From Thermanaerosceptrum fracticalcis (GTDB lineage: Bacteria > Bacillota > Peptococcia > DRI-13), in NCBI RefSeq assembly GCF_000746025.2, contig NZ_CP045798.1, positions 1,102,501 to 1,166,500 on the forward strand: DNA of 64,000 nucleotides, written 5' to 3'. Below, one piece after another: positions 5,749-61,947 of the stretch. The first letter of the stretch is position 1. Each line of letters starts with the position of its first letter. A program made the position numbers and the translations under genes. The notes beneath the pieces were generated by a model, which ran no database searches, was not told where the DNA came from, and was given only the letters and a program-made list of their open reading frames with translations.

Positions 5749-5782
5749 AATCGGCAATCGGGAATCGGGAGTCGGAGATCGA
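5749..5782. repeat. degenerate tandem TCGG words
   Basis: Consecutive words AATCGGC, AATCGGG, AATCGGG, AGTCGG and AGATCG (unit 6-7 bp) lie directly after the terminator and stop 6 bases short of the stop codon of the FtsA-like gene. First word family. Confidence 0.75.
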
Positions 5783-5788
5783 AATATA

Positions 5789-7906
5789 TTATGTCCAGGA
5801 AATTTCAATTTTATCTCCATCTTGTAAAGGGTACGTATATTCTTTCTCTTCGTTATTTACCAAAAGCAAAAGCCGGGTTTTGCCAGGAGGCGGGTTTGGT
5901 GAAAAATTTATTTTATTAAATATATCGATGAGGATAGGAGGAAATTTTTTATCACAAAATTGATAGTCAATTTCATCACCTGGTTGAACCGGGGTAGTTC
6001 TTTCCGCAGGATTTTTATTCACCCAGATTTTTTCACCCTGCTGCAGAGCAACCTTTTCTCCGTTTACATAAACTTGTAGGGCAGTTCCTTTAGTGACAGT
6101 TCCGGGAAGAAAATTGTCCACAGTAAGATTTTTTACAGGTTCAAAATAAATGTGATCTCCCGGTGCTACCTGGTCATCGAGCTTTGCCTTTTTGCCGTTA
6201 ATTGTACAAAGGGACATATCCAGTAGAGATAAAACTTTACCATTAACCGTCACCTCTGTAGAACCCCCGAGAAAACCGGCTTCCGCCAGGACGTCTTTTA
6301 CAGTTTGCTTCGTCACCACTTCCGCTTTACTGCCATCAACGATGTTGTCTTCAAGAGAGATAATCTTATTACCTGTTTTAACAACCGGTTTTATCTCCAC
6401 ATTTTTTCCGTTTACTCGACAAAAACCAAAATAATCTTTCAAGACCTCTCCATAGGTAGCTTTGGCCTCTTCACCGGGCTTGCCCGGCGTAAAGATAATT
6501 TTATCTCCTTGTCTTACCGTATTGTTTAATTGGGCAGGCTCACCATTTAAAGTGATACTGCCGGGTGTTCCCATTTTACCGGGGATAGAAACCATCTGTC
6601 CGTTTATTTCAAAGGTTAAGGCCATACCAGGTCTGCCATAAAGGTCACGGAGATTAAAGCCTCCCGCCAGTAATGCTTCCGCCACGGTATTTTTCCCTAT
6701 ATTTAACAGGCGTACAGGTATATCATTAATGTTTACGGAAACAAACCCCATGGTTGGACAGGTTAAACCTGTATAGGCAATACCCAGTACTGTGATAAAA
6801 TTGGGCCCCAGAGAATCGGGCGGTAAATTTAAAACATTGTTCAGTTTGCCGGCCTGTTGCACGGCCACCCTGTTTTCGGGGAGCTGAAGTTTCTCAGCCA
6901 AGCTACGGGTTAGCCCGGGAGTAAGACTGCCGCCGCCCACTAACAATACAGCCTGCGGTGTTTTGCCGTTTAATCCATATATTTCTTGAGCAATTGCCTC
7001 CGCCAAACTATCTACAGCGGGGACTAAGGTTGTGAGAACTTCACTTTTTTTGAGATTTTGTTCAATACCTAATACGTCTGTTACGGTAATATTTTCATCA
7101 GTTAGGTTGCGTTTTACCTGTTCCCCCACGTTAAAATCTAATAAATACGCATCACAGATAGCCTCTGTAATTTCATCGCCCGCCATGGGTACCATGCCAA
7201 AGGCGCTGACAGTGTTATCACCGCACACGGCGATATCAGATGTTCCCGCCCCAATGTCAACCAGTACTAAATTTAAACGTCTCATGGTGGGATTTAAAAC
7301 CAGGTTGGCTACAGCAATGGGCTCCAGGGTGATACTGAACAACTCCAGCCCTGCCTGTTCCACCACAGTCTGCAAGGAGTCAACAACAATGCGCGGCAAG
7401 AAAGTAGCCACGACCTGAAGGTCCGCGTCCTGTCCCCTCTGACCAACTAAAGAACCGATGGTAATATTATCCAGATGTTGTTCCACCACACTGTAACCAA
7501 CACAGTAATACTGTTGGGAAAGAGGTATATAGCCTTGGTTTTTGGGCAGGGCAAGCTGGGCATCCTGTACTGCCTGCAATTCAAGAGATAAAACATCTTC
7601 CCTGGTGATGACAGTTCCCACAGGAAATTTAACTTTGGCCGTACCCCTCACTGTGCGTAAAGCCCTACCTGCTGCAGCTACAGCCACTTTTTTTAATTCC
7701 AAACCGGACAGGCTCCTAATTTCCTGTACTATTTCTTTGACAATTTGCGTAACTTGTTCTACATTATGTATTTGCCCGTCTAACATTGATCTGGTCTTAT
7801 GCTCTTTATAAATCAAATGAGAAACAGAAAGCTTCCCATCCTCTAATGAGGCGATTAAACCCATTACTGTCCTGGTGCCGATATCTAAGACAAAGATAGA
7901 TTCCAA
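5789..7906 (-). CDS. FtsA-like actin-fold ATPase with repeated NG...GD beta-rich C-terminal units
   Basis: 705 residues. Residues 1-390 are FtsA/PilM-like: LDIGTRTVMGLI (phosphate 1), VDIGAGTSDIAVCGD (phosphate 2) and VLLVGGGSLTPGL (adenosine loop). From about 390 the protein carries repeated short units with the pattern hydrophobic-NGxxxxL...GDxI (for example LNGEPAQLNNTVRQGDKI, INGKKAKL...APGDHI, VNGEKVAL...QPGDEI, VNNEEKEY...LQDGDKI), suggestive of beta-grasp or SLBB-like domains. A typical FtsA is about 420 residues, so nearly half is extra. No ftsZ is nearby. The start is TTG with GGGAGGTG upstream. It probably is a polymerising or complex-organising ATPase; its partner is unknown. Confidence 0.7.
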   Translation of the reverse strand: MESIFVLDIGTRTVMGLIASLEDGKLSVSHLIYKEHKTRSMLDGQIHNVEQVTQIVKEIVQEIRSLSGLELKKVAVAAAGRALRTVRGTAKVKFPVGTVITREDVLSLELQAVQDAQLALPKNQGYIPLSQQYYCVGYSVVEQHLDNITIGSLVGQRGQDADLQVVATFLPRIVVDSLQTVVEQAGLELFSITLEPIAVANLVLNPTMRRLNLVLVDIGAGTSDIAVCGDNTVSAFGMVPMAGDEITEAICDAYLLDFNVGEQVKRNLTDENITVTDVLGIEQNLKKSEVLTTLVPAVDSLAEAIAQEIYGLNGKTPQAVLLVGGGSLTPGLTRSLAEKLQLPENRVAVQQAGKLNNVLNLPPDSLGPNFITVLGIAYTGLTCPTMGFVSVNINDIPVRLLNIGKNTVAEALLAGGFNLRDLYGRPGMALTFEINGQMVSIPGKMGTPGSITLNGEPAQLNNTVRQGDKIIFTPGKPGEEAKATYGEVLKDYFGFCRVNGKNVEIKPVVKTGNKIISLEDNIVDGSKAEVVTKQTVKDVLAEAGFLGGSTEVTVNGKVLSLLDMSLCTINGKKAKLDDQVAPGDHIYFEPVKNLTVDNFLPGTVTKGTALQVYVNGEKVALQQGEKIWVNKNPAERTTPVQPGDEIDYQFCDKKFPPILIDIFNKINFSPNPPPGKTRLLLLVNNEEKEYTYPLQDGDKIEISWT

Positions 7907-9881: not shown

Positions 9882-9968
9882 CTAACGCTATCCGATCGCC
9901 GATTTCCGACATCGAGCCATCGCCCTCGATTTCCGATTTTCCCACATCCGACAGTTCGCAGTTATCAG
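9882..9968. repeat. degenerate TCCGA-word tract upstream of cheR
   Basis: Successive words read ATCCGATCGCCGATTTCCGAC, ATCGAGCCATCG, CTCGATTTCCGATTTTCC, ACATCCGAC, then AGTTCGCAGTTATCAG. It is the reverse complement, in word content, of the tract at 10071-10106; GTCGGATATCGG in one and CCGATTTCCGAC in the other can pair at 11 of 12 positions. The two tracts enclose the hemL terminator. Confidence 0.7.
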
Positions 9969-9981
9969 TTGGCTGAACTAA

Positions 9982-10070: not shown

Positions 10071-10106
10071 GACGTCGGAAGTCGGATATCGGATTGTCGT
10101 AGTTCG
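10071..10106. repeat. degenerate TCGGA-word tract abutting the hemL stop codon
   Basis: Words GACGTCGGAAGTCGGATATCGG and ATTGTCGTAGTTCG run directly into the hemL stop codon at 10107. First word family. Confidence 0.75.
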
Positions 10107-11402
10107 TTATTTAATAGCAGCTCGGAAAGCTATACGGCTGGCGGCAATAGTTTTTTCCAGGTCCGCCATGCTGTGGGCACTGGAGACAAAAAGGGCTTCA
10201 AACTGGGAGGGAGCCAGATAAACACCCTGCTCCAGCATAGAACGGAAGAACTTCCCGAAGGCTTCCGTATCCGCAGTGGAAGCAGAAGTAAAATCGCGGA
10301 CTTTCTCTTCTGTAAAGAAGCAACACAGCATAGAGCCTACTCTGGTGAAATAGACTTTGGCCCCTGCCTCTTTAGCCGCATCGGCAAGGCCTTCTGCCAG
10401 GAAAGCAGCTTTTTTCTCTAATTCTTCATAAAAGCCCGGTGTGTTGATGACCCTTAAAGTAGCCAGTCCCGCCGCCATCGCCAGGGGATTGCCGGAAAGG
10501 GTACCGGCCTGGTACACAGGTCCCGTCGGGGCAATCATTTTCATAATCTCGGCTTTGCCTCCATAAGCACCCACAGGAAGCCCTCCGCCAATAATCTTGC
10601 CTAAACAGGTCAAATCGGGATCTATGTTATACAGGGCCTGGGCGCCACCAAGGGCTACACGGAATCCGGTCATTACTTCATCAAAGATTAAAAGGGCTCC
10701 ATACTGTTTGGTAATTTTTCTTAACCCTTCCAAAAACCCAGGTTCAGGAGAAACGACGCCCATATTGCCGGGAACCGGCTCCACGATCACAGCGGCAATA
10801 TTGTTTCCCTCCGCTCTAAAAATAGCCTCCATCCCAGCCAGATCATTAAACTGGGCCGTAATGGTATTCTGGGCAATACTATTAGGCACACCGGGGCTGG
10901 AGGGAATTCCTAAGGTTAAAACACCGGAACCTGCCTTCACCAAGAGGGGGTCGGCATGTCCATGATAACAACCGGCAAATTTCACGATTTTATCCCGACC
11001 GGTGTAAGCTCTGGCCAAACGCAAGGCACTCATGGTTGCTTCTGTCCCCGAATTCACCATCCTCACCATTTCAATGGAAGGAACGATTTCCCGGATAAGC
11101 TTAGCCATTTCCGTCTCCAGTAAAGTCGGTGCCCCGAAACTCGTCCCGATCTCCAGGGTTTTCCTTAGGGCTTCTTCTACCTGGGGATGCCGGTGTCCCA
11201 GGATGAGAGGTCCCCAGGAGCCCACATAATCAATATACTGGTTACCATCTACGTCATAGAGGTAAGCACCCTCGCCGCGGGCAATAAAAACAGGATCATG
11301 TCCCACGGCCTTAAAAGCCCTGACCGGGCTGTTCACACCGCCGGGTATATATTGTTGTGCTTCTTCATAGTAGGCCCGTGAGGTGGAATAGTTTTTACCC
11401 AT
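10107..11402 (-). CDS. hemL: glutamate-1-semialdehyde 2,1-aminomutase
   Basis: 431 residues, the usual length. It converts glutamate-1-semialdehyde to 5-aminolevulinate using [19 protein letters not shown] and [17 protein letters not shown] (with the PLP lysine) are the aminotransferase class III and HemL signatures. It is the last gene of the hem operon, 16 bases after hemB, with AGGAGG before its ATG. Another class III aminotransferase is present only as a fragment at 20304, but that one lacks HemL features. Confidence 0.97.
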
Positions 11403-32790: not shown

Positions 32791-32832
32791 AAATGGTAGA
32801 GCCTTCCCTTTTGAGGAAGGCTCTACCATTTA
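32791..32832. terminator. long perfect hairpin between nitrilase and DUF1614 genes
   Basis: The arms AAATGGTAGAGCCTTCC and GGAAGGCTCTACCATTT match perfectly over 17 bases around loop CTTTTGA. There is no T run, so it may be a terminator for the nitrilase-family gene or a processing site. It touches the word-repeat tract at 32831. Confidence 0.6.
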
Positions 32833-32895
32833 GTTGTTGGTTGATAGTTGTTATTCCCGGTTACTGGTCACTAACGTTAGATATCGGATGTCGAC
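32831..32895. repeat. degenerate word tract running into the stop codon of the nitrilase gene
   Basis: TAGTTGTTGGTTGATAGTTG, then GGTTACTGGTCACTAACG (second family) is followed by GATATCGGATGTCGACC (first family). The last part lies inside the gene: the minus-strand codons TCG ACA TCC GAT ATC TAA encode its final residues STSDI. Both word families thus occur in one tract. Confidence 0.7.
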
Positions 32896-33719
32896 CTGGT
32901 TAGCAGGTCCCGGTACAGTTCCGGTCTCCGTCCGGCCAGGTAAAAACTATGCCGCATAGAACGGCGTTCTTTCTGCCGAATAGTATTAATTAAGGAACTC
33001 TCCAGGGTGACACATAAGAGCCCCTCCCGCTGGGAAAAGTCTTCCGCTATAATATTGCCTTTCGGGTCAAAGACCAGAGCGCCACCGCTGTAACTGTGCC
33101 CATTATCTTCACCCACCAGGTTGCAGGCTGCCAGGAAAACAGAATTATCATAGGCCCGGGCTGTTAAATATTTCGTCCAAATCTCTTTCCTATCCCCTAC
33201 AATACTGGGAGAAGCATGAGGAGCAAAAATAATTTCTGCTCCTTTAAGGGATTGAATGATACTAATTTCGGGGAAATGGGTATCCCAGCATATCTGGACA
33301 GCAAATTTCCCTTTAGCGCTATGGAATACAGGGAGGCTTTCGCCAGCAGTATAATAAGGTTCCTCGCTTTGCCCCAGATGGGTTTTACGGTACACATCCC
33401 AGGACCCGTCGGGAAAGAAGAGTAATTGCGTGATATAGGGATTACCGGCCTGATTGTTTTCGGCCAGCCCCACGGCAATGATCATTTGATGTGATTCCGC
33501 CATCTGCCTGAGACTTGACATCCAGACACCAGGAATCTCCAGGGGACATTGGGGCGGAACACCGCGGCGGTAACCATGGATACACATCTCAGGGAAACAA
33601 AGGATATCTACCTTGTGTTCAGCGGCCTGCAAGCTAAAGTTAGTTACTTTACGCAAGTTTTCTTCAATCTGACCAAACCTGGCGGTCATTTGTACGAGAC
33701 CGATTGTAAGATCCTGCAC
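32877..33719 (-). CDS. carbon-nitrogen hydrolase (nitrilase superfamily)
   Basis: 280 residues. The Glu-Lys-Cys triad is visible: FPEMCIHGY (Glu), YRKTHLG (Lys) and QICWDTHFPE (Cys). Family members hydrolyse amides or nitriles; the substrate cannot be told, though N-carbamoylputrescine amidase-like proteins have this length. GTG start. The last residues STSDI are encoded by repeat-tract sequence, so the C-terminus may have been rewritten by the repeat. Confidence 0.85.
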   Translation of the reverse strand: MQDLTIGLVQMTARFGQIEENLRKVTNFSLQAAEHKVDILCFPEMCIHGYRRGVPPQCPLEIPGVWMSSLRQMAESHQMIIAVGLAENNQAGNPYITQLLFFPDGSWDVYRKTHLGQSEEPYYTAGESLPVFHSAKGKFAVQICWDTHFPEISIIQSLKGAEIIFAPHASPSIVGDRKEIWTKYLTARAYDNSVFLAACNLVGEDNGHSYSGGALVFDPKGNIIAEDFSQREGLLCVTLESSLINTIRQKERRSMRHSFYLAGRRPELYRDLLTRSTSDI

Positions 33720-42754: not shown

Positions 42755-44182
42755 ATGACTATGAATATCCAACTCCTGATCGTTGTCTTATATATTGCCG
42801 TTTTATTTGGTATCAGCTGGTATGCCAAACGTTTAGCCTCCCAGGGCTCCACTCATTTTCTCCTGGCCGGTCGGGCTCTCTCCCCTGCTTTAGTGGCCGT
42901 CAGTATCGCTGGTTTGGCTATAGGGGGAGCCTCCACTATCGGTGTTTCCGAAAATGCCTACAACATGGGTCTCTCGGCCGGCTGGTATGACGTGGCCTGG
43001 GCAGCCGGAGCTTTTATCATGGGTTTACTGGCCGCAGGTAAATACCGGGAACTGCAGGTTACTACGATTCCAGAACTTTTTGAGCGCTTCTATGATAAAA
43101 AAGGACGAATTATCAGTGTCATTGGCCAGATCATTATTATGCTGGTGATCACCTCTCTTCAATATGTGGCTGGCGGAGCCATCTTAGCCTCCCTCCTCCC
43201 TCAATATTTCAACATGCAAACGGGTATGATAACCAGCGCCCTGGTCTTTATCGGCATGACCCTTATTGGCGGTATGTGGTCCGCCGGATTATCAAATCTT
43301 CTTAATGTTTCCTTAATCTACATAGGTACCATTATCGGTACCTTCATGTGCGTTAAATCCCAGGGTGGTTTACAGCAGATTGCCCTGGCCATACCGGACA
43401 GTGCCAAGTACTTCAGCCCCATCAAAGGTGCCGGTATGGGCACCATTATGGCCTGGATGGCGGTAATGATTACCCAAACCCTGTCTGCTCAGGGTCCCGT
43501 GCAGATTGCCTGCGGCGCCAAAGACGCCAGAGCTGCCCGTAATGGGTTCCTCCTGGGAGGTCTCTTAATCTTACCCATTGGTTTCCTCTCCGCCCTCATG
43601 GGTATTGCCGCCAGAGCCGCCTTCCCAGGTATTCAAGCTACCCTGGCTTTACCCAAAATCATCATGTCTTTAGACCCTGTGGTTGCCGGAATAACCCTGG
43701 CTGCCCTCTGGGCCGCTGATGTATCCACCGCAGGCACCCTGCTCTTAGGTTCTGCCACCCTCTTCTCCCAGGATATCTGGAAACGGTTTATTCAGAAAAA
43801 TATGGACGATAAACAGTATCTTCTGGTCAATCGTCTTGCCGTGGCCCTGCTCGGTATCCTTACCTACTGGATGGCTGCATCCGTGGTGGGAATTGTGAAA
43901 ACCCTGGTCATTGGGTTGAGCCTCACTACCGCTTTCACCGTTATCTTTCTCTTCACCGTTTTTGCCCCGGGTCTCTGCCGTAAAAATTCCGCCTTCTATA
44001 CCACGCTGGTCGGGATTATCGTTTTAGTTCTCTGGCAGTTTGTCCCTGCTATACGCATACTGCCCCATGTCATCTATCTGGAATGGATTGTCTGCCTCAT
44101 CACCTTCCTGGTGATTACCCTCTTTGACAGTAAACCTGCAAGGATTAGTATAGTAAATAACTTAAAGAACGTTAACCGTTAA
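42755..44182 (+). CDS. sodium:solute symporter (SSS family)
   Basis: 475 residues and 12-13 membrane helices. The N-terminal FLLAGRALSPALVAVSIAGLAIGGASTIGVSENAYN segment, read in parts, is the SSS family core with the Na+ site, and LAALWAADVSTAGTLLLGSA is the TM8 motif. Substrate unknown; the operon with the LarA-like gene suggests a hydroxyacid or related organic acid. The C-terminal residues NVNR and the stop codon are formed from a GTTAAC word repeat. Confidence 0.9.
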   Translation: MTMNIQLLIVVLYIAVLFGISWYAKRLASQGSTHFLLAGRALSPALVAVSIAGLAIGGASTIGVSENAYNMGLSAGWYDVAWAAGAFIMGLLAAGKYRELQVTTIPELFERFYDKKGRIISVIGQIIIMLVITSLQYVAGGAILASLLPQYFNMQTGMITSALVFIGMTLIGGMWSAGLSNLLNVSLIYIGTIIGTFMCVKSQGGLQQIALAIPDSAKYFSPIKGAGMGTIMAWMAVMITQTLSAQGPVQIACGAKDARAARNGFLLGGLLILPIGFLSALMGIAARAAFPGIQATLALPKIIMSLDPVVAGITLAALWAADVSTAGTLLLGSATLFSQDIWKRFIQKNMDDKQYLLVNRLAVALLGILTYWMAASVVGIVKTLVIGLSLTTAFTVIFLFTVFAPGLCRKNSAFYTTLVGIIVLVLWQFVPAIRILPHVIYLEWIVCLITFLVITLFDSKPARISIVNNLKNVNR

Positions 44183-44200
44183 AACGTTAACAGTTAACCG
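44167..44200. repeat. GTTAAC-word tract starting inside the symporter gene end
   Basis: Words GAACGTTAACCGTTAA, AACGTTAAC and AGTTAACCG (unit 7-9 bp) begin in the last four codons of the symporter gene and include its TAA stop. The convergent gene yraN has the same words at its own 3' end (44334-44359); the two tracts face each other across the shared terminator. Confidence 0.8.
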
Positions 44201-44271
44201 CTATATACCTGTGATTTAATAAATCAACAATATTACTAAGTAACGTAAACCATATATGTTTAAACATAACG

Positions 44272-44307
44272 AAAAGCCCGTTTCTCCTGGCGAGAGACGG
44301 GCTTTTT
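44272..44307. terminator. bidirectional terminator between symporter gene and yraN
   Basis: The stem AAAAGCCCGT/ACGGGCTTTTT with inner TCTC/GAGA has T runs in both directions and serves both convergent genes. Confidence 0.9.
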
Positions 44308-44333
44308 AAATGCCTAATAAAGACTAACCTTAG

Positions 44334-44359
44334 ATACGGTTCACGGTTAACGTTAACTA
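44334..44359. repeat. GTTAAC-word tract ending in the yraN stop codon
   Basis: ATACGGTTCACGGTTAACG then TTAACTAG: the final CTA is the yraN stop codon on the minus strand. Mirror partner of the tract at 44167-44200. Confidence 0.75.
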
Positions 44360-44713
44360 GAATGCATCCCGTATCAATTCCAATGACTTCACTTCCCCTT
44401 CTTCATTAAAAAGAATACCCACAACATCAAAACGGCAGGCTTTCTTCCAGGCGTTTTTGGTTTTCAGATAGTGGGTAGCAATTCTCTTTACCTTTTGCTG
44501 CTTGGCCCAGTTGACCGTTTCCTGGGGCAGTCCAAAGCGTGTCCCCTGCCTGCTTCTCACTTCTATGAAAACAAGGGTATTCCGATCTTCCGCAATAATA
44601 TCAATTTCCCCTAAAGGAGACCGGTAATTTCTCTCTAAAATTTGATAGCCCTGGTGTTTAAGATAGTGAACCGCCGCCTCTTCAGCTACCTGGCCCATAC
44701 GTTTTCTGTCCAT
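44357..44713 (-). CDS. yraN: YraN/UPF0102 family nuclease-like protein
   Basis: 118 residues. EEAAVHYLKHQGYQILERNYRSPLGEIDIIAEDRNTLVFIEVRSR, read in parts, holds the restriction-fold core: GEIDII and FIEVRSR give the D...ExR/K pattern of Holliday-junction-resolvase-like enzymes. Role not firmly known. ATG 44713 follows AAAGGTGAAAGA; the frame extends 14 codons further without support. Confidence 0.9.
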   Translation of the reverse strand: MDRKRMGQVAEEAAVHYLKHQGYQILERNYRSPLGEIDIIAEDRNTLVFIEVRSRQGTRFGLPQETVNWAKQQKVKRIATHYLKTKNAWKKACRFDVVGILFNEEGEVKSLELIRDAF

Positions 44714-44792
44714 TCTTTCACCTTTTTTCCCTGATTCACTAATATCATAACACACCCTAAGGCATAAGCAACAATTCTATACTAAAAAAACA

Positions 44793-60465: not shown

Positions 60466-60581
60466 TGCGACTGTCCGACTTCCGACATAGCGAGACTTGT
60501 GTCTGTGGTGTACCCCACTTCCCAATAGCAAAACCTGTTCTCCTATAACGGATAGCGGAAAACGGTTAGCGGATAGTCGTT
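60466..60581. repeat. degenerate TCCGAC / GCGGATA word tract between ffh and rpsP
   Basis: The left arm GCGACTGTCCGACTTCCGAC, then ATAGCGAGAC (60468-60496), and the right arm AACGGATAGCGG, AAAACGG, TTAGCGGATAGTCGTT (60547-60579) are inverted relatives of one word set, separated by about 50 bases. The right arm ends 4 bases from the ffh stop codon at 60583. First word family. Confidence 0.75.
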
Positions 60582-60582
60582 A

Positions 60583-61947
60583 TTATTTAAAGAAAGGCAG
60601 TTTGAAGCCACCTTTTTTTCCACTTTTTGCCCCCTGCTGCATTTGGGCTATTTGTTTCATCATTTTCTGGGCCTGCTCGAACTGTTTGAGCAGTTTATTC
60701 ACTTCCTGTACGGATGTCCCGCTCCCCAGGGCAATACGTTTTCTCCTGCTGCCGTTAATAATTTCCGGGTGCCTTCTTTCTTCCCTGGTCATGGAGCGAA
60801 TGATAGCCTCCGTATGTTTTACATCTTTTTCACTAATCTCCATACCCTTCAAGGCTTTCATCTGCCCCATCCCCGGCAGCATCCCCATCAATTCACTAAG
60901 AGGTCCCATGGATTTCATTTGCTGGATCTGATCAAGAAAATCTTCCAGGGTGAATTCGGCCTTACGTAATTTACGTTCCAATTCCTCCGCTTTTTTGGCG
61001 TCAAAATTAGCCTGGGCTTTTTCTATGAGGGTTAAAACATCACCCATACCTAAAATCCGGGAGGCCATCCTGTCGGGATAGAAGGGTTCCAGGGCATCGA
61101 GCTTTTCACCCATACCCACGAATTTAATAGGTTTCCCCGTCACTGCTTTTACAGAAAGGGCAGCTCCCCCCCGGGTATCTCCATCAAGTTTGGTAAGTAT
61201 AACGCCGTCTAAACCTAGCCTTGCATTAAAGGTTTCAGCCACGTTGACGGCATCCTGTCCGGTCATGGCATCAACCACAAGGAGTATTTCATGGGGCCTA
61301 ATATTGGTTTTGATGTTTTCCAGTTCAGACATCAAGGCATCGTCAATATGGAGACGGCCTGCCGTATCCACGATCATCAGGTCATGGCCCTGGTTTTCCG
61401 CATAAGCCCTGGCTGCCTTGGCAATATCCACGGGATTTTGTTTATCCCCCATGGAAAAAACGGGAATCTCCAGCTGCTCACCTAAAACCTGCAGCTGCTT
61501 GATGGCTGCGGGCCGGTAAATGTCACAGGCCACCAGCAAAGGACGCCGCCCTTGTTTTTTAAAGAGCCTGGCCAGTTTACCGCTGGAAGTGGTTTTGCCG
61601 GAACCCTGTAAGCCCACCATCATGACGATAGTCGGGGGTTTGGAAGCCAAATTTATCTTACTCTGAGTACCACCCATCAACTGGGTCATTTCATCATGGA
61701 CTACTTTGATGACCTGCTGTCCCGGCGTAAGGCTTTCCAGAACCTCCACACCCACAGCTCTTTCCTTAACTCTGTTTACGAAATCTTTAACAACTTTATA
61801 GTTGACATCTGCCTCCAAAAGAGCCATTCGTATTTCCCGCATGGCTTCAGTAACGTCTTTTTCCGAGATCTTACCCTTGCCGCGTAAATTTTTAAAAATT
61901 CCCTGGAGTTTTTCCGCTAAACCTTCGAAAGCCACATGTCTCACCAC
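60583..61947 (-). CDS. ffh: signal recognition particle protein Ffh
   Basis: 454 residues. Helical N domain, GTPase with G1 MVGLQGSGKTTSSGKLA, DTAGRLHID (G3), TKLDGDTRGGAAL (G4), then the methionine-rich M domain (QMKSMGPLSELMGMLPGMGQM in parts) that binds SRP RNA and signal sequences. It follows ylxM by 4 bases. Confidence 0.98.
   Translation of the reverse strand: MVRHVAFEGLAEKLQGIFKNLRGKGKISEKDVTEAMREIRMALLEADVNYKVVKDFVNRVKERAVGVEVLESLTPGQQVIKVVHDEMTQLMGGTQSKINLASKPPTIVMMVGLQGSGKTTSSGKLARLFKKQGRRPLLVACDIYRPAAIKQLQVLGEQLEIPVFSMGDKQNPVDIAKAARAYAENQGHDLMIVDTAGRLHIDDALMSELENIKTNIRPHEILLVVDAMTGQDAVNVAETFNARLGLDGVILTKLDGDTRGGAALSVKAVTGKPIKFVGMGEKLDALEPFYPDRMASRILGMGDVLTLIEKAQANFDAKKAEELERKLRKAEFTLEDFLDQIQQMKSMGPLSELMGMLPGMGQMKALKGMEISEKDVKHTEAIIRSMTREERRHPEIINGSRRKRIALGSGTSVQEVNKLLKQFEQAQKMMKQIAQMQQGAKSGKKGGFKLPFFK

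Follow-up and report, generated by a model that had tools for sequence, protein, structure and literature searches.

We find that the GTTAAC tracts flanking a convergent symporter–yraN gene pair in Thermanaerosceptrum fracticalcis are members of a family of heptad repeats, specific to the genus and confined almost wholly to intergenic DNA, that is probably tolerated after stop codons, with the stops that fall inside tracts and the few residues that tracts encode as by-products. The pair lies in a window of 64,000 nucleotides, the whole stretch of DNA that was analyzed. Such a family would be repeat DNA able to sit exactly at gene boundaries, pass on stop codons and, with no dedicated targeting, lengthen or alter C-termini by a few residues. 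The junction has the following features:

42755–44182, plus strand: sodium:solute symporter gene (SSF, PF00474), with its stop codon within the left tract
44168–44200, plus strand: left heptad tract, CGTTAAC/CGTTAAA/ACGTTAAC/AGTTAAC, whose first 15 nt are the NVNR codons and stop TAA of the symporter
44272–44306, no strand assigned: two-way intrinsic terminator hairpin, AAAAGCCCGTTTCTC-CTGGC-GAGAGACGGGCTTTT, between the two tracts
44336–44359, minus strand: right heptad tract, an inverted copy of the left, reading TAG TTAAC GTTAACC GTGAACC G; it abuts and includes the yraN stop
44357–44755, minus strand: yraN (UPF0102, PF02021), with its stop at the right-tract edge and a C-terminus, IRDAF-stop, that is conserved in orthologues

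The earlier note had assigned the last residues and stop of the symporter to a GTTAAC tract and the yraN stop to an inverted one, with a shared terminator between the two. All three placements agree with the letters. The symporter reading frame (475 aa) closes with AAC GTT AAC CGT TAA at 44168–44182, encoding NVNR and the stop, and the tract continues to 44200. On its own minus strand, yraN ends TTC TAG and is followed directly by TTAACGTTAACCGTGAACCG; its stop is the complement of CTA at 44357–44359, and it is contained in GTTAACTAG on the plus strand solely because CTAG is palindromic. The left and right tracts are inverted copies, with 18-nt arms 89% complementary and 15-nt arms 93% complementary. 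The hairpin between them has the G+C-rich stem, the T run on the plus strand and the upstream A run of an intrinsic terminator working in both directions, and was missed by a consensus terminator scan. The same convergent layout of stop, tract, terminator, inverted tract and stop recurs in two more gene pairs (L112 12567 and L134 16027), consistent with tracts being tolerated in the 3′ UTRs on either side of an essential terminator.

To place these tracts among others, we sampled 1.26 Mb from the host genome, a single contig of 3.8 Mb, with genes called ab initio. At scores of at least 10, a word-blind scan of this sample gave 156 intergenic tracts for lag 7, 106 for lag 14 and 0–11 for the other lags tested, so that the tandem periodicity is strictly one of 7 nt. 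At a score of at least 9, 196 of 206 tracts are intergenic; overlaps with reading frames occur only at their ends, 12 of them at stops and none at starts. In a cross-validated model, the junction tracts score 15.6–15.8 and 16.8–17.5, and coding false positives at scores of at least 12 occur at 0.001–0.002 per kb.

The heptad words vary by locus (TAGTTAC, TAGTTGG, TCGGAAG, CGGTTAA/CGGTTCA, CCAGTGA and others), and the variation is limited to set positions, as in AGTT[AG]NT, CGGA[AT]NN and GGTTNAC; we counted 291 variable phases, whereas permutations averaged 354 and never fell below 340. Composite cassettes with inverted arms occupy 28 of 61 intergenic regions (mean 19, maximum 29 expected), a modest excess. 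Among 46 genomes of the class, comprising the host, its sister and 44 relatives, AGTT heptads number 237 in the host genome, 172 in the sister, 33 in one other and about zero elsewhere. CGGTT heptads number 50 and 25 in the first two and 0 in all but one other genome of the class. The tracts are a genus-level expansion of one family of degenerate heptad repeats.

Clusters of GTTAAC in heptad register are not a chance product. That they reflect chance or low-complexity clustering, or a sequencing artefact, is most improbable: the hexamer alone is indeed not enriched in the window (21 occurrences, 15.4 expected), but the strict 7-nt periodicity and near-total intergenic confinement contradict this reading, as does the sister genome (G001, approximately 95% nucleotide identity), which was assembled separately and carries tracts of this kind at corresponding loci.

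Several other intergenic arrangements were observed in the sample. A repeat of about 109 bp with a palindromic heptad core (CCGACTGCCGACCACCGATTACCGACATCGGAT...) occurs at least seven times at L109:5876-6597; the copies have a CRISPR-like spacing and are built from heptads. A hairpin module (CGCTTCCCG...CGGGTATCGGGAAACGGGAAGCG) adjoining AACTACC tracts is common to the heptad cassettes at L106:11067-11263, L123:18316-18471 and L109:5220-5310, which suggests ordered composite elements. A further intergenic repeat, TTGGGGACATTCCTGTCCCC, lies at L128:4526-4729 and L128:9412-9543 and differs between the two sister genomes. A perfect AACTAAC array of about 11 units at L128:1016-1092, shorter and mixed in the sister genome, is a candidate site of fast slippage.

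Elsewhere in the window, heptad tracts lie near gene ends at the following positions:

5749–5783, minus strand: AATCGGG tract after the stop at 5789; in the sister genome it is shorter by one unit (8-bp gap)
9891–9972, no strand assigned: heptad tracts in inverted orientation, lying beyond the hemL terminator
10072–10105, minus strand: tract immediately following the hemL stop; the sister genome shares it, with a single substitution within the heptads
32832–32892, minus strand: tract encoding the C-terminal STSDI-stop of a carbon-nitrogen hydrolase (32877–33719, minus strand); the tract is also in the sister genome
60547–60585, minus strand: tract of CGGATAG/CGGAAAA/CGGTTAG reaching the stop at 60583

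Anchoring to stop codons had been claimed at 10107 (hemL) and, to within a few bases, at 5789 and 60583. True heptad tracts do lie near all three stops, but just imperfect or partial units touch them; for hemL, the tract-to-stop gap is approximately 12 bp in the model. Heptad tracts are often joined to another dispersed element of intergenic DNA (GTAGCGAGACTTGTGCCTGTGGTG / CATAGCGAGACTAGGA), which is seen in the window at 60474–60520 and also at L123:16927-17020, L277:3000-3075 and L112:9430-9550.

From such cases the earlier note had proposed that tracts are generated at, or selected at, gene 3′ ends. Their placement does not bear this out. Tract blocks overlap or come within 8 bp of 27 of 93 gene 3′ ends, compared with 17.0 or 20.7 under two random-placement nulls. 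The P value for this excess is 0.0005 or 0.046 depending on the null, 0.0005 being that of the strictest. At gene starts, 0 of 83 lie within 8 bp of a tract block, compared with 12.2–15.4 expected, and the nearest gap is 11 bp. The dominant placement signal is therefore exclusion from ribosome-binding sites, with placement at 3′ ends near uniform; a weak but real 3′-end preference may exist, given the mild excess under some nulls. Tracts are also found at a distance from any stop, and in the DNA preceding gene starts. Stop usage (TAA/TAG/TGA) is 10/5/4 in genes with a tract within 3 bp, matching 545/269/221 in the genome. Given this match, insertion primed by a stop codon (TAG) was considered and rejected.

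A stop codon inside a tract, seen in 12 of 1130 genes, is the expected mechanical outcome of the repeat itself. Seven is coprime with three, and therefore a tandem word that contains TAA, TAG or TGA presents a stop in all three frames; GTTAACC does so in all six. A reading frame that enters such a tract ends within about 21 nt because the stop in the heptad recurs in every frame. All three frames carry a stop within 24 nt in 27% of tract strands, compared with 2.3% of control intergenic DNA.

We then consider the protein ends. The tract has not rewritten the end of YraN: 14 of the 15 loci with an orthologue lack the present tract and yet share the position of the last residue (...DAF, NAF or AAF followed by the stop); the remaining locus is two residues longer. 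The proposal that the tract rewrote this C-terminus thus fails, since tract-free orthologues keep both the last residues and the stop position, the outcome its author had named as decisive against it. The symporter differs. Its NVNR tail is tract-encoded, and homologues with 59–68% identity have unalignable tails of 8–10 residues past the last aligned column, compared with 12 here. The locus is absent from the sister genome, where we found only a homologue with 63% amino acid and 67% nucleotide identity, and the stop of the 59% homologue, from G031, likewise lies at heptad-like sequence (TAGTTCACCGTTAATAGTTAATAG). Rewriting of the symporter tail by the tract is plausible.

Comparison with the sister genome allows turnover to be followed directly. 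At hemL and the hydrolase gene at 32877, both tracts and gene ends are conserved. Units have been gained or lost at 5762, L123 18253 and L097 17042, with one 14-bp change and two of approximately one unit (8- and 11-bp gaps). Several intergenic regions, lying between genes that are 95–99% identical, have been swapped wholesale for other heptad cassettes, and the swapped DNA extends from the stop codon to the ribosome-binding site. We saw cassette swaps and no clean empty site with a target duplication.

These swaps exchange stop codons and, in a few genes, the last 1–14 residues. At L106 6718, the ending ITK-stop is kept, with TGA followed by CGACGTCCG in one genome and TAG followed by TTGCTAGTT in the other. 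The Mur ligase gene at L278 2729-4096 ends KND-TAA in a CGAC tract in one genome and KNS-TGA in an AGTT tract in the other. At L125 8597, the end KELVTV-stop is matched by a tract-encoded TVHD-stop in the other genome, and in the GTPase gene at L112 12567 a tract-encoded tail, ...RRATSDF-stop, is matched by ...EQEGIQA-stop. The broader claim that tracts can rewrite C-termini therefore stands for such exchanges between sister species and falls for YraN, with the symporter a plausible case. Among 194 compared 3′ ends, stop-codon changes are commoner beside tracts (5/18 versus 15/176, P = 0.025), and stops next to tracts evolve faster. Tail changes in the same set are not commoner there (1/18 versus 11/176); the L112 12567 case is not among the 18 tract-adjacent ends counted.

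It is quite unlikely, in our estimate, that tracts are actively made or inserted at gene 3′ ends, for instance with the stop codon, or RNA at a terminator, as primer, and so rewrite C-termini. The overlapped stops, the replacement of stops and, rarely, residues in swaps, and the recurrence of the convergent layout at the junction and two other gene pairs would fit such a process. However, near-uniform placement, the tracts remote from stops or preceding starts, and unaltered stop usage argue against it, as do the absence of a raised rate of tail changes and the shared YraN end.

The inverted arms suggest another alternative, in which tracts are functional RNA elements of the 3′ UTR that flank terminators and are under selection, with paired arms protecting or processing mRNA ends. 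In addition to the complementarity of the arms around the terminator, the junction region folds better than shuffled sequences (z = −4.83), the heptad cores are less variable than expected and inverted pairs are somewhat in excess. Most of the folding energy comes from the terminator itself, however, and the far arm would fall past the terminator of each mRNA. An Rfam search of the junction gave no family above threshold, and the sister species carry unrelated words in the exchanged cassettes at several genes. We regard a role as RNA elements as unlikely.

The reading we favor, a tolerated intergenic heptad family, can be set out as a mechanism. Each heptad consists of a core of 4–5 nt (AGTT, CGGA, GGTT..AC) and 2–3 variable positions, often arranged in composite inverted cassettes. 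Cassettes grow and shrink by whole 7-nt units, presumably through replication slippage, and are exchanged wholesale between loci or strains, presumably by recombination or gene conversion. Purifying selection would tolerate tracts throughout the space behind a stop, provided they end short of the following ribosome-binding site, and would spare terminators. At the junction, yraN would have kept its ancestral end, and the symporter has a short tract-encoded tail (NVNR-stop); tract-internal stops and the few tract-encoded residues would be by-products of all-frame stops. A more radical reading, which we consider doubtful, is that DNA is actively made in 7-nt steps, its core constant and its other positions free to vary, and repeatedly fills the gap from stop codon to ribosome-binding site; it would then provide new stops, and gene boundaries in the genus would be rewritten as fast as species diverge.

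Short intergenic repeats of several kinds offer comparison. REP/BIME and MITE-type repeats are intergenic and palindromic, with a family sequence that is fixed and, for some, a transposase, and often lie at 3′ ends near terminators. They share inverted arms, intergenic location and proximity to terminators with the tracts described here, whose heptad words differ from locus to locus. The STRR heptanucleotide repeats of heterocystous cyanobacteria are degenerate 7-nt tandem repeats dispersed between genes, as here, but in a different phylum.

The closest parallels we cite are the TAACTGA heptamer direct repeats found between genes in Beggiatoaceae, some Cyanobacteria and Bacteroidetes (MacGregor 2015, PMC4679880). 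Read in one orientation, these put a stop in each of the three frames; they overlap the stop in 13 ORFs, show indels in 7-nt steps between related strains and encode residues at protein ends. The one word TAACTGA is dominant, and in the Guaymas genome most sets lie just upstream of start codons (PMC4679880). The tracts here are alike in being intergenic 7-nt tandem repeats with stop overlaps, copy changes in 7-nt steps and encoded protein ends. They differ in having many words with a common core pattern, inverted composite cassettes, and whole cassettes swapped between sister species; rather than a single word upstream of starts, they avoid the last 10 bp or so before starts (0 of 83 blocks within 8 bp). 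Stop-overlapping heptads are thus already known from Beggiatoaceae, and what is new is the multi-word form, the composite inverted cassettes, the occurrence in a clostridial genus and the fast wholesale turnover. A literature search for such heptad repeats in Clostridia found nothing, which does not prove their absence.

With a genome pair about 95% identical, turnover can be read directly, and the same pair offers a way to test where DNA that is built in heptad steps around a constant core comes from. In the draft assembly of the sister genome, contigs (L250, L246, L231 and L233) tend to end at heptad tracts, probably reflecting assembly breaks at repeats.
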